A stretch of DNA of 64,000 nt, from NCBI GenBank assembly GCA_001184205.1, contig LBMP01000001.1, forward strand, positions 291,365-355,364, read 5' to 3'. A program made the translations under genes and the position numbers. This document shows positions 32,477-36,316 of this stretch, in pieces. The notes under the pieces were generated by a model. That model saw only the letters and a list, made by a program, of their open reading frames with translations, had not been told where the DNA came from and searched no databases. Positions within the stretch are counted from its first letter, which is position 1, and each line of letters opens with the position of its first letter. The DNA is from Desulfocarbo indianensis. GTDB lineage: Bacteria > Desulfobacterota > Desulfarculia > Desulfarculales > Desulfarculaceae.

Positions 32477-33199
32477 TCACAGGTTCAGGTTGCGGTGCTC
32501 GTTGGCGAAGGCGGCCAGCTCGCCGCTGGCGGCGAAACTGTAGAGCTTCCCCCCGCCCACGATGACGTGATCCATGAGTTCCACCCCCACCCCGGCGCAG
32601 GCGTGATACAGCCGCCGGGTGAGCTCGCGGTCGGCCCGGCTGGGCGCGGCGTCGCCCGAGGGATGGTTGTGGGCGCAGACGATGGCCGCCGCGCCGCCGG
32701 CGAGGGCCTTGGCCACCACCTCGCGGGGATAGACCACCGCCTCGGTGAGGGTGCCGGCCGCCAGGTCCTCCACCCCGCGCACCTGGCGCTGGGCGTCCAG
32801 AAGCATGACCCGAAACACCTCCCTGGTCAAGGGACGCATGGTGAGCTCCAGGTATTCGGCGGCCTGGGCCGCGTCCTGGAAAACCCCGCCGTGCAAGAGG
32901 CGGTCCTCCAGATAGCGCCGGGCCACCGCCGGCACCAGCTTGAGGCCCAGGATGTTCTTGGGGCCGATGCCCTTGATCCGGGCCAGCTCAGCGGGCGCGG
33001 CGTCCAACACCGCCTGCAGGTTGCCGAAAGCGGCCATCAACTGGCGGGCCTGCTGCTTGCAGTCCCTACGGGGAGTGGCCAGGGTGAGCAGCAGCTCCAG
33101 CACCTCCTCGTCGGTGAACTTGGCCAGGCCGTGGGCCAGGAACTTTTCCCGCAGGCGCTCCCGGTGCCCCTGGCCGGGGTGACCCTCCCCAGGGCTCAT
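32477..33199 (-). CDS. radC: RadC-family JAB-domain protein
   Basis: This 240-residue protein has helix-hairpin-helix sequence (AELARIKGIGPKNILGLKLV) followed by the JAMM/MPN+ metal site IVCAHNHPSGDAAPSRAD. Despite the historical name, the repair role of RadC is not firmly established. ATG 33199 overlaps the stop of the upstream radical SAM gene (ATGA), so the two are translationally coupled. Confidence 0.92.
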   Translation of the reverse strand: MSPGEGHPGQGHRERLREKFLAHGLAKFTDEEVLELLLTLATPRRDCKQQARQLMAAFGNLQAVLDAAPAELARIKGIGPKNILGLKLVPAVARRYLEDRLLHGGVFQDAAQAAEYLELTMRPLTREVFRVMLLDAQRQVRGVEDLAAGTLTEAVVYPREVVAKALAGGAAAIVCAHNHPSGDAAPSRADRELTRRLYHACAGVGVELMDHVIVGGGKLYSFAASGELAAFANEHRNLNL

Positions 33200-34239
33200 C
33201 GCCAAACCCCGGGCACGGCGGTCTGGCATTCGGGGCATTTGCCGTCGGCCAGCCGGTTGCCGCCCACCGAGAACAAGCGGCGCGTGATCAAGGTGGCTCC
33301 GCAAGACGGGCATTTGGTGCTCTCCGAGTCGTGCCCGGCCAAATTGCCGGCGTAGACGTAGGCCAGGCCCGCCTCCTTGCCGATGGCCAGGGCCCGCTCT
33401 ATGGACGAGGCCGGGGTGGGGCCGGGGCCTTCCTTGCGGTATTTATAGCGGGGCGTGTAGGCGCTCACGTGCCAGGGCACTTGCGGCGATAGTTCGCCGA
33501 CCAAGAAAGCGGTCAGCTCCCGCAATTCGGCCGGGTCGTCGTTCTTGCCGGGGATCAAGAGGGTGGTGACCTCCAGCCAGATGCCGGCGGCGTGCATGCG
33601 CTTTAAAGTATCCAGGACCGGTTGCAGCTTGGCCTTGCACTCGGTTCTGTAGAATTTATCGTTCATGGCCTTCAAATCCACGTTGGCCGCGTCCAAAAGC
33701 CCCCGGCAGGTTTCCACGCAATCGGCCGACTCATAGCCGTTGGTGACGAACACGTTCTTGAGCCCTTTTTCATGGGCCAATTTCATACAGTCGTAGGCGT
33801 ATTCAAAAAAAATGGTGGGCTCGGTGTAGGTGTAGCTGATGGAGGCGCAGGCCCCGCGCAGGGCCTCGCCGATGATATAGGCTGGCTCGACCTCGCTGCC
33901 GCCGGGGCCGCCGCCGGGAATGCCGTCGCCCTCCCCGGCTTCGCGGGGCTGCTGGCTGATGTTCCAATTCTGGCAAAAGGCGCATTGGAAATTGCAGCCC
34001 ATGGTGGCGATGGAATAGCTGTAGGTGCCTGGCAGAAAATGAAAAAGCGGTTTCTTTTCGATGGGGTCCACGCTGCCGGTGATGGGCTTGCCGTAAACCA
34101 GCGAATACAGGACGCCGCCCTGGTTTTGGCGCACCATGCAGACGCCGCGTTTGCCTTCATCTATCAAACAGGCATGGGCGCACAACCGGCAGCGGACCTT
34201 GTTTTCGCCCAGCTTGTCGTAAAGCATGGCCTGGTGCAT
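33196..34239 (-). CDS. amrS: AmmeMemoRadiSam-type radical SAM enzyme
   Basis: This 347-residue protein has the radical SAM cluster motif CNFQCAFC (CX3CX2C, about residues 81-88) in the context ATMGCNFQCAFCQNW. An N-terminal Cys-containing region (CRLCAHACLIDEGKRGVC) and a C-terminal zinc ribbon (CPSCGATL and GKCPECQTA) flank the barrel. This is the AmrS/PflA-like architecture. The protein is linked to a protein modification system; partners (AMMECR1, Memo) are not within this window. It is the first gene of the amrS-radC-pyrF run. Confidence 0.88.
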   Translation of the reverse strand: MHQAMLYDKLGENKVRCRLCAHACLIDEGKRGVCMVRQNQGGVLYSLVYGKPITGSVDPIEKKPLFHFLPGTYSYSIATMGCNFQCAFCQNWNISQQPREAGEGDGIPGGGPGGSEVEPAYIIGEALRGACASISYTYTEPTIFFEYAYDCMKLAHEKGLKNVFVTNGYESADCVETCRGLLDAANVDLKAMNDKFYRTECKAKLQPVLDTLKRMHAAGIWLEVTTLLIPGKNDDPAELRELTAFLVGELSPQVPWHVSAYTPRYKYRKEGPGPTPASSIERALAIGKEAGLAYVYAGNLAGHDSESTKCPSCGATLITRRLFSVGGNRLADGKCPECQTAVPGVWR

Positions 34240-34357
34240 GTCGGATCCTCCTCCCTAGACCCAGAATATATCCAGGCCGGGCGGCGGCACAAGCTCCAGG
34301 CGCTGCTCGGGGAAGGTTTTACTCGTGGTGGAGGCGGTATCAGCGCAGGCGGTCAGC

Positions 34358-34567
34358 CTAACGCGGTTCCACCGGCGTTACGATTCCTCCCATTATGGCC
34401 AGTTTTTGGGCGGCCTCCTCCCGCGAGACTCCGCAGGCTTGGCAATGCAGTTCAAAAGGGGGGGCGACCCATAGCCAGAAACCGCATGTGACCACTGCCA
34501 ATACCAGTCTCCACGGGGACAGGCGCCACACCCAACAAGCGGGTTGGCCGCAGACCGGACAATGCAT
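34358..34567 (-). CDS. Small LITAF-like zinc ribbon protein
   Basis: This 69-residue protein has an N-terminal CPVCGQPAC knuckle, a central hydrophobic stretch (LVLAVVTCGFWLWVAPPF) and a C-terminal HCQACG knuckle. Two CxxC pairs separated by a membrane-inserting hydrophobic loop match the LITAF-like zinc-ribbon layout. The function is unknown. It is on the minus strand upstream of amrS but separated by about 120 bp. Confidence 0.55.
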   Translation of the reverse strand: MHCPVCGQPACWVWRLSPWRLVLAVVTCGFWLWVAPPFELHCQACGVSREEAAQKLAIMGGIVTPVEPR

Positions 34568-34768
34568 GACCCCTTACCTTTCCAGGCTTTCCATGCCTCC
34601 AAAATTCACGATGGTAATTACGCGCCTTGTAGACGTTGGATTACCCCAGGTACCCCCAAATAGGATCAAAAAATACTATAACACACGCCGGTTGCGTTTG
34701 TGAAGAGAATCGTACCGCACGATTGGGCGACAACTAGGCGACATATCTGGAACAATCGTTCAGGGCTG

Positions 34769-34796
34769 TTGACACAATATGTTGTATGGCTATAAT
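34769..34796 (+). promoter_or_regulatory. Consensus promoter with palindromic spacer
   Basis: TTGACA (34769-34774), a 16-bp spacer and TATAAT (34791-34796) form a perfect-consensus sigma-70 promoter. The spacer contains ACAA-tatg-TTGT, a small palindrome that could be an operator. It drives the Cys-rich gene at 34834. Confidence 0.85.
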
Positions 34797-34833
34797 CAGG
34801 TAGCTCTATTTGATGGGGCAAGGAGGTAAAACC

Positions 34834-35001
34834 ATGCGCGCATGGCAAAGCAAGGTTTGCAAGACCTGCTGCCACTGGTCAGAGGCTGGCAAGGGGCTTT
34901 GCACCCTCAGCGAAAGGGCCTGCGGACAATTTTACCGTTGCGATTTCTGGCAGGCGCCGGGAATGTCCGCGCAGGAGCAGGAAGCGCTGGCCAGGGCCTG
35001 A
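34834..35001 (+). CDS. Small Cys-rich protein (55 residues), strongly expressed unit
   Basis: ATG 34834 follows AAGGAGGT at good spacing. The product has a dense Cys pattern: KVCKTCCHWSEAGKGLC, then RACGQFYRCDFW. Six Cys residues in about 30 positions suggest a metal site or small iron-sulfur or zinc module. It forms a stand-alone unit with a consensus promoter upstream and a 17-bp terminator downstream, so it is probably highly expressed. I do not recognise a named family. Confidence 0.7.
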   Translation: MRAWQSKVCKTCCHWSEAGKGLCTLSERACGQFYRCDFWQAPGMSAQEQEALARA

Positions 35002-35031
35002 GCGGAACGCCCGCTCCGGGCCCAAAAACAA

Positions 35032-35067
35032 AACGGGCGTCTCCTTTTGAAAAAGGAGACGCCCGTT
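35032..35067. terminator. Bidirectional 17-bp terminator hairpin
   Basis: A perfect 17-bp stem (35032-35048 with 35051-35067) ends in TTTT on one side and AAAA on the other, with a tiny loop. It separates the convergent genes at 34834 and 35108. Confidence 0.9.
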
Positions 35068-35107
35068 GGCAACCTGTCTCAACCAGGCCCGAGGGCCTGG
35101 CGAGCCC

Positions 35108-35428
35108 TTATTGAGCGGGCTCTTCCTTTTTCTCCTCGGGCTTGTCCTCGGGTTCCATGGAAGCCAGCTTGGCCTTCAACTCGGCCACTTCCTGCTTGTA
35201 CTTTTCCACGTCCTCGCCTTGGGGCTGGAAAGGCTCCTGAGCCTGCTCCAATTCGGCCCGCCGCTTGTCCTTCATCTCCTCGGCCCCCAGATAGGTGGCC
35301 AAGGCGCCGCCCAACAGCAGAACCAAGGGAATGATGCCCTTGAGGAGCCAAAGGAACTCATCCCACCAGCCAATGAGTCCGATCACACCCAAAACCAATG
35401 CGGCCAGTCCGCCGATCAGAGCCACCAT
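35108..35428 (-). CDS. Small membrane protein with acidic coiled-coil tail
   Basis: This 106-residue protein has two hydrophobic helices (LIGGLAALVLGVIGLIGWW and GIIPLVLLLGGALATYLGA). A Lys/Glu-rich coiled coil (DVEKYKQEVAELKAKLASME) and a charged tail (DKPEEKKEEPAQ) follow. The start ATG 35428 has AGGAGG upstream. It is probably an inner-membrane protein with a cytoplasmic tail. The function is unknown. Confidence 0.65.
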   Translation of the reverse strand: MVALIGGLAALVLGVIGLIGWWDEFLWLLKGIIPLVLLLGGALATYLGAEEMKDKRRAELEQAQEPFQPQGEDVEKYKQEVAELKAKLASMEPEDKPEEKKEEPAQ

Positions 35429-35585
35429 CTTGCAAACCTCCTTGGGGGATGCTCTCGCGCGCTAACATTGCTGCGCGCCCCCGGCCCATTGCCTGACACC
35501 GGGAGCCATCGGCCTTTGCGGGGCGCGCTGTTGGATATCTGCTTAATGCTATTAATTAACGTGTAGCACGGCCTTTAAAGGCCTG

Positions 35586-35846
35586 TCAATCTTCAAGGCC
35601 CTTTTTAAAGGGACGAAAACGCCATACGGCGTTTTCGTCGGAATTTTCCAAAAAATAATACGACCCGCCGCAGCGCAGAACAAAGCGCCGCCGGCGTCCG
35701 CCGGTCGCCTGGGGCCCCTGCCTGAGCTCCTCGCCCAAAAGCTCCACCGGCCGCCAGGCGCCTTCCAGGAAAAGCGCCAGCGGGGTTTGTTCCGCCTTGG
35801 ACCCCTCCAGCCAGCGTACTAAAGCTTTTCGCCAGGCCTGGTCCAC
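35586..35846 (-). CDS. Hypothetical protein (86 residues)
   Basis: GTG 35846 follows the stop of the PH-domain gene by 5 nt, with AGAGG as the likely ribosome-binding site. The product has a charged C-terminal half (GRRRRFVLRCGGSYYFLENSDEN) and no membrane segment. Tight spacing suggests co-transcription with the upstream gene. No family was recognised. Confidence 0.5.
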   Translation of the reverse strand: MDQAWRKALVRWLEGSKAEQTPLALFLEGAWRPVELLGEELRQGPQATGGRRRRFVLRCGGSYYFLENSDENAVWRFRPFKKGLED

Positions 35847-35851
35847 GGCCT

Positions 35852-36316
35852 CTAACGCCGCCAGGCCCCGGTGATCCTTTCGTCCTGCGCGCCCAGCTCC
35901 ATCAGAATCCCCTTGAACTTATCCGGCTCGGCCACCCCGAAGATCTTGATGGCCGGGTCTTCCCTGCCCTGCACGTACACGTGCACGTGGGCCACGCCCA
36001 GGGCCCTCTGGGTGAGGCCCCGCCGCAGGTCGATGCGGCGGATGTCCTCGAGGGCCACCTCCCGCAGGGCGTGCTTGGGAAAGCTGGTTTCGTGGGTCAG
36101 CTTGTCCGCGCTCAGCCGGTAGATATTGGTGAAGCGCTTGATGATGATGAAGACCACGAAGCAGGTGCCGATCAGCTCCGCCAGGGCCGGGCGGATGGGG
36201 GCGTCGGGATTGATCAGGGGGCCGATGAAAAAAATCAAGGCGCCGAACACATAAACCGAGAAGGATTTCCAGGCGGGGCGGAACTCCAGGTAGCGGGCCA
36301 GTTTTTGGGCGTCCAT
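35852..36316 (-). CDS. Membrane protein with bacterial PH-like domain
   Basis: This 154-residue protein has two N-terminal helices (SFSVYVFGALIFFIGPLI and ALAELIGTCFVVFIIIKRF). A beta-rich domain follows with NIYRLSADKLTHETSFPKH and ALEDIRRIDLRRG, typical of the bacterial PH (YdbS/DUF304-like) fold. ATG 36316 fits the membrane topology. Members are membrane-associated with unclear biochemical roles. Confidence 0.65.
   Translation of the reverse strand: MDAQKLARYLEFRPAWKSFSVYVFGALIFFIGPLINPDAPIRPALAELIGTCFVVFIIIKRFTNIYRLSADKLTHETSFPKHALREVALEDIRRIDLRRGLTQRALGVAHVHVYVQGREDPAIKIFGVAEPDKFKGILMELGAQDERITGAWRR

Follow-up and report, generated by a model that had tools for sequence, protein, structure and literature searches.

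A conserved four-cysteine mini-gene of Desulfocarbo indianensis with a candidate NrdR-type operator in its promoter

Organisation of the locus

The window analysed here, a stretch of 64,000 nt of Desulfocarbo indianensis DNA, contains a short open reading frame on the plus strand (34834-35001; ATG at 34834, TGA at 34999-35001) that encodes a protein of 55 aa (P0001). The cysteines of this protein lie at positions 9, 12, 13, 23, 30 and 36, so that six are found within 28 residues. Upstream is a sigma-70-type promoter (34769..34796, plus strand) which matches the consensus at 12 of 12 positions, with TTGACA at 34769-34774 and TATAAT at 34791-34796 separated by a 16-bp spacer. It is the only perfect TTGACA-N16-18-TATAAT arrangement in the 64 kb, compared with a mean of 0.01 across 100 shuffles of the window. 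A palindrome, ACACAATATGTTGTAT, overlaps the end of the -35 hexamer and most of the spacer (34772..34787, plus strand), and a strong Shine-Dalgarno sequence, AAGGAGGT (34820-34827, plus strand), stands 6 nt ahead of the ATG. A preliminary description of this DNA had listed the consensus promoter, the palindrome in its spacer and the strong ribosome-binding site, and all three were borne out; the strong expression that it also named is conjectural.

The same description had given the mini-gene a 17-bp terminator. A hairpin of 16 pairs does lie downstream (35032..35067, minus strand), yet a T-tract is present on the minus strand only, as TTGTTTTTGG directly after the stem; the letters after the stem on the plus strand are GGCAACC. 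Since it would terminate transcription on the minus strand only, the hairpin was assigned to the convergent ORF at 35108-35428 and not to the mini-gene. Three terminator-like sites were found within 34000-36000, all of them on the minus strand. The mini-gene looks monocistronic, because the flanking ORFs taken as genes (34358-34567 and 35108-35428) are both encoded on the minus strand. Its divergent neighbour is a radical SAM enzyme of the AmmeMemoRadiSam system (33196..34239, minus strand; TIGR04337, 342 bits against a cut-off of 220). The ORF at 35108-35428 encodes a membrane-type protein of 106 aa with a sub-threshold match to the magnetosome protein MamI (40.9 bits against a cut-off of 80; E 1.4e-10), and that at 34358-34567 encodes a protein of 69 aa that contains CxxC pairs and matches Lar_restr_allev weakly, below the cut-off (E 0.0024).

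Conservation of the mini-gene and its protein family

An orthologue is present in a genus-mate, the metagenome-assembled genome Desulfarculaceae bacterium JdFR-95 (contig MTPE01000322.1), in which the leader has a weaker Shine-Dalgarno sequence than the window. There too the mini-gene is divergent from an AmmeMemoRadiSam-like radical-SAM gene (a similar ORF by translation, L002). Over 41 codons compared, 16 were identical, 13 synonymous and 12 non-synonymous, with 8, 9 and 19 differences at codon positions 1, 2 and 3, respectively. A single-protein search of 98 relatives (E <= 0.001) found three genomes, namely its own, that of the genus-mate and one of another family. A profile search of 395 phylum genomes gave matches in 80 at E <= 0.1, of which the 16 at E <= 1e-6 (own genome included) were accepted; the matches beyond these were judged to be mostly noise, several having internal stops. 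A second phylum sample, overlapping the first, gave 17 of 394 genomes at E <= 0.001, the weakest of which (G295, E 1.1e-4) is doubtful. Relatives of the mini-protein are thus present in other families of the phylum. A viral collection contained one homologue (IMGVR_UViG_3300028043_000001; L069:2998-3177, on a contig of 116 kb), which keeps the four family-wide cysteines and has T at K20 and Y at W39.

Judged from this sequence conservation, the mini-gene is a genuine gene of a patchily distributed family, and the conservation search proposed in the preliminary description did return homologues. A spurious ORF could be suspected from its shortness and from its having no named family; such an origin is scarcely credible given homologues with invariant cysteines in several families and the third-position bias of the differences.

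In an alignment of 15 members, K7, C9, C12, K20, G21, C23, G31, C36 and W39 are invariant, and W15 and F33 are conserved at 90 percent or above. The core of the window protein reads C-x2-C-x10-C-x12-C-x2-W. The six cysteines in about 30 residues noted earlier are therefore real for the window protein, but only four of them (C9, C12, C23 and C36) are family-wide among the 15 aligned members; C13 occurs in the window protein only and C30 in the two genus members only. The window protein belongs to no family in Pfam, NCBIfam or PHROGs and has no match in plasmid and phage collections. Against PDB sequences it gave chance matches only (E 2 and above), and the 15-member profile found no credible PDB chain (E 2). 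An NCBIfam scan of the 15 members returned 0 families, and among the 15 members scanned, one had a weak zf-CHY match (E 0.01) and an LRV_FeS match (0.026) was also seen, both at chance level. Structure predictions were poor, with pLDDT values of 59 and 56 from inputs of 2 and 3 sequences.

The fixed Cys, Trp, Lys, Gly and Phe residues would suit a metal or Fe-S site, and a metal or redox role is plausible only. It is moderately likely that C9, C12, C23 and C36, together with W15 and W39, make up a metal site, of which a small [4Fe-4S] cluster or a Zn/Fe(Cys)4 centre would be the likeliest kind. A metallothionein-like metal buffer or an oxidative-stress protein, close to what was first proposed, would account for so dense a run of six cysteines; against this, the four that are conserved sit in a fixed framework of Trp, KG and GxF, an arrangement more like a single structural metal site than a Cys-rich buffer. 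This alternative is regarded as very unlikely, and membership of the metallothioneins was rejected given that four of six cysteines are conserved and other core residues are also fixed.

The spacer palindrome as an NrdR-type operator

NrdR is a repressor of ribonucleotide reductase genes. The spacer palindrome ACACAATATGTTGTAT agrees at 15 of 16 positions with ACACWATATNTWGTGT, which is our own symmetric form of the printed NrdR box, with N at position 10. When compared with the printed 15-letter consensus acaCwAtATaTwGtg (PMC4009431), the window site fits at 13 of 15 positions and that of the genus-mate at 14 of 15, with the misfits at lower-case positions. No site within one mismatch of ACACWATATNTWGTGT arose in 100 window shuffles. 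Even when up to three mismatches were allowed, ACACAATATGTTGTAT was the only site in the 64 kb, the shuffles averaging 0.41 at that looseness. The genus-mate has ACACAATATCTTGTGG at the equivalent place (15/16 to the pattern), the only site within one mismatch found in its 71-percent-complete genome. The 28-bp promoter/operator block is identical to that of the genus-mate (L004) at 24 of 28 positions, compared with 11/50 and 9/50 for two 50-bp upstream stretches, and the best of 500 shuffled pairs came to 20/28. Both half sites are kept, including the 9-letter run ACACAATAT and TTGT.

A scoring matrix was built from 10 boxes of this genome and its relatives, at the promoters of nrdD (G000, G001, G003, G004) and nrdJ (G068, whose training gene is partial and nrdJ-like), with no mini-gene box included. 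The window box scored 24.0 and the genus-mate box 19.6, compared with 12.7-21.8 for the training boxes and 11.3 for the next-best window site. Under leave-one-locus-out, the window box scored 23.2-24.4, and over 452,316 positions of the loci compared, the training loci set aside, 24.0 was reached by copies of the window site only. For second boxes the matrix errs somewhat on the optimistic side, because partners were picked as the best site over a range of distances. When 32 offsets were compared at each of the five nrd promoters, the best partner of the first box was 31 or 32 bp away in all five cases, and a separation of 31-32 bp between paired NrdR boxes is given in an earlier study (PMC2892513). 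A -35 TTGACA that runs into the box is also seen upstream of nrdJ in G068 and of nrdD in G004. Like the NrdR boxes of reductase promoters, the box of the window is a 16-bp palindrome; it overlaps the site of RNA polymerase, an arrangement reported for nrdDG promoters (PMC12051234).

From this agreement the operator appears to be NrdR-type, and as a candidate site it is fairly secure. The earlier suggestion that the gene is regulated is thereby supported, both by the 24/28 block identity in the genus-mate and by the NrdR-box-like palindrome. For control by metal or oxidative stress, which had also been suggested, no sign was seen: the operator points to deoxyribonucleotide status and, to our knowledge, resembles no metal-regulator site, which weighs further against a metallothionein-like buffer. 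Sites for FNR, HcpR and Rex were considered as the operator and dropped, as the letters appeared to fit NrdR better.

The single box and the distribution of NrdR-type sites

The D. indianensis genome encodes NrdR (TIGR00244, 189.5 bits against a cut-off of 124.65), together with NrdD, whose gene adjoins that of an NrdG2-type activase, and three reductases of PF02867. At the latter three loci of this genome no site came within 4 mismatches of the box, and among six PF02867-type genes scanned, only that of G068 had a good box. Unlike the boxes of reductase promoters, that of the window is one strong box, and the mini-gene is not a reductase gene. For the NrdR proteins of Streptomyces coelicolor and Escherichia coli, two boxes are reported to be required and a single one to be left unbound, with box spacers of 14-17 or 24-27 bp (PMC12051234). 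Members of the NrdR regulon are expected to have their two boxes a whole number of helix turns apart. A possible degenerate second box lies at +31 bp in the window (34803..34818, plus strand); it is weak, with 6 mismatches, a matrix score of 0.2 and P 0.026 against random window positions. The genus-mate has a similarly weak second site at +32, with a score of 1.7.

Sites of this type are not confined to the mini-gene. The 5.1-Mb D. indianensis genome has seven places with two mismatches or fewer, three of them with one (strand hits 5 + 7 against 2 + 3 for the control pattern), and no reductase gene was recognised at the other six. This frequency, along with the zf-CHY match of one family member, would fit a constitutive strong promoter that contains a palindrome by chance and serves a housekeeping Zn-knuckle protein. 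The half sites are, however, kept in the genus-mate, where the block identity exceeds the shuffle maximum, and such a promoter is considered improbable.

Two of the sites in G000 are themselves paired. At L074:1470-1516 (G000:C1, site at 1115448), an NrdR-type pair 31 bp apart, with 1 and 3 mismatches, lies approximately 400 bp upstream of a gene that reads as a PAS/histidine kinase; an Rfam search of L073 and L074 returned nothing. At L079:1470-1516 (G000:C301, site at 151544), an NrdR-like box and a partner 31 bp off (2 and 5 mismatches) are upstream of a gene that reads as SMC-like.

In 14 other genomes, sites within one mismatch were not commoner than in the reversed control (5 strand hits against 7). 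Of the five places, three were in or beside unrelated ORFs, as judged by translation. No good box was found at the mini-genes of 17 loci outside the genus, where top matrix scores were 2.7-12.7; one of the 17 (L066) had a 3-mismatch site approximately 3 kb from the mini-gene. As no good box was found at these mini-genes, NrdR control, if real, would be a trait of the genus.

Gene neighbourhoods in relatives

At the 17 relative loci, genes were called crudely and each named cluster was identified from one member, and the neighbourhood counts are consequently lower bounds. Thiamine-phosphate kinase is beside the mini-gene at no fewer than 10 of the 17 loci, endonuclease V is present in at least 8, and a flavin reductase of 152-165 aa (one member being PF01613) adjoins the mini-gene in at least 6. 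A second Cys mini-gene, of the CLNxxxRGxCQxCLWWEWD type, lies near the first in at least 9 of 17. Members of this second, unnamed family were seen at L062:6114-6308 and in eight further loci of L052-L064, in many cases along with flavin reductase or endonuclease V; compared by hhalign, the second and first Cys mini-proteins gave 21 percent. In G099 (L066:5198-6829), a PfkB/cytidylyltransferase (HldE-like) protein carries the Cys4 domain, in frame, as its front part. None of the neighbour genes of the relatives was seen in the window or in the 3.4-kb contig of the genus-mate, where the mini-gene is alone.

These associations raise the possibility that the mini-protein is a small Zn or Fe-S redox protein that partners a flavin reductase, the palindrome serving another repressor. 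The adjoining flavin reductase and the second Cys mini-gene both favour this role, as does the fact that the flavin-reductase loci of relatives are without a good NrdR box. Against it, the one match to the flavin reductases of relatives in the D. indianensis genome is 29 percent identical and on a different contig, and the NrdR-type match stands far above the window background. A flavin reductase partnership is thus a serious minority alternative, though not the favoured one.

Proposed role of the mini-gene

The favoured explanation is that, in this genus, the mini-gene stands alone behind a strong-looking sigma-70 promoter whose spacer would be an NrdR box. When dNTPs are plentiful, NrdR loaded with ATP/dATP would sit on the box and keep RNA polymerase away; a fall in dATP would derepress the mini-gene together with the ribonucleotide reductase genes. 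The mini-protein could then act as a small accessory (an electron-transfer, thiol/Fe-S or stabilising subunit) in deoxyribonucleotide synthesis, its partner being NrdD, a class III reductase, or else a class II-like reductase of the PF02867 type. Taken as a whole, this reading, in which NrdR would control a Cys4 metal or Fe-S-type protein that may assist deoxyribonucleotide synthesis, is tentative and carries somewhat less than even confidence. The sequences themselves show the gene, its family, the core of four cysteines, the conserved operator and the genes for NrdR, NrdD and PF02867 reductases in the genome; that NrdR binds, that a metal is present and that the protein is linked to a reductase, we infer.

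NrdD is a glycyl radical enzyme. Other glycyl radical enzymes have tiny subunits of HiPIP fold, such as MASS-gamma, which are reported to carry a [4Fe-4S] cluster on a CX2CXnCXnC motif (PMC12358834). Like MASS-gamma and HPAD-gamma, the mini-protein is tiny, has the CX2CXnCXnC order, an aromatic residue soon after the second cysteine and GxC at the third; unlike them, it has the spacing C-x2-C-x10-C-x12-C. An hhalign comparison with glycyl-radical small subunits gave 19 percent, which is not significant, and no gene for a glycyl radical enzyme large subunit was found among five neighbouring ORFs scanned. Nor did the profile of PF18671 give a convincing match: one of the 15 members matched at E 0.065, no better than the chance-level zf-CHY and LRV_FeS matches, and across the phylum, one of 198 genomes matched, below the cut-off. 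With HiPIP itself (PF01355), the mini-protein shares the order CxxC, C and C-x2-aromatic, as seen in aligned HiPIP sequences, but it differs in having no export region and shorter loops. HiPIP membership was rejected, as neither the window protein nor its 14 relatives matched PF01355 and hhalign gave a non-significant 2.7 percent; in a sample of 148 genomes of the phylum, 0 had a PF01355 match.

By analogy with these HiPIP-fold subunits of other glycyl radical enzymes, and as NrdD is one of these enzymes, our analysis leans towards a reductase accessory with an Fe-S or Fe/Zn(Cys)4 site. That the mini-protein is a ribonucleotide reductase accessory at all is possible but on balance doubtful. 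The narrower proposal of a dedicated NrdR-controlled subunit or electron carrier of a class III (anaerobic) or class II (B12-dependent) reductase in this Desulfarculaceae lineage would be unlikely. The NrdR regulon is known mainly for reductase genes. Links of NrdR to topoisomerase and chemotaxis have also been reported (PMC4898720). Judged by title, no paper was found that describes an NrdR-linked Cys-rich mini-gene or such a reductase accessory, and the candidate NrdR-type link of a Cys4 mini-gene is new and testable.

If NrdR controls the mini-gene, its regulon would gain an uncharacterised Cys4 protein, and the link would provide a cheap handle on function. The promoter would also serve as a test of NrdR action at a single strong box, which is disputed by recent work (PMC12051234). 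Should the protein bind a cluster as well as a reductase, a small Fe-S subunit comparable to those of other glycyl radical enzymes would be added to the class II/III reductases. G068 has the mini-gene and no NrdD match, so NrdD cannot be a universal partner. Among the PF02867 genes, two closely similar loci with similar neighbours (G000 C35:7204-8577 and C290:6449-7822; L081 and L085) would reflect either recent duplication or assembly redundancy.
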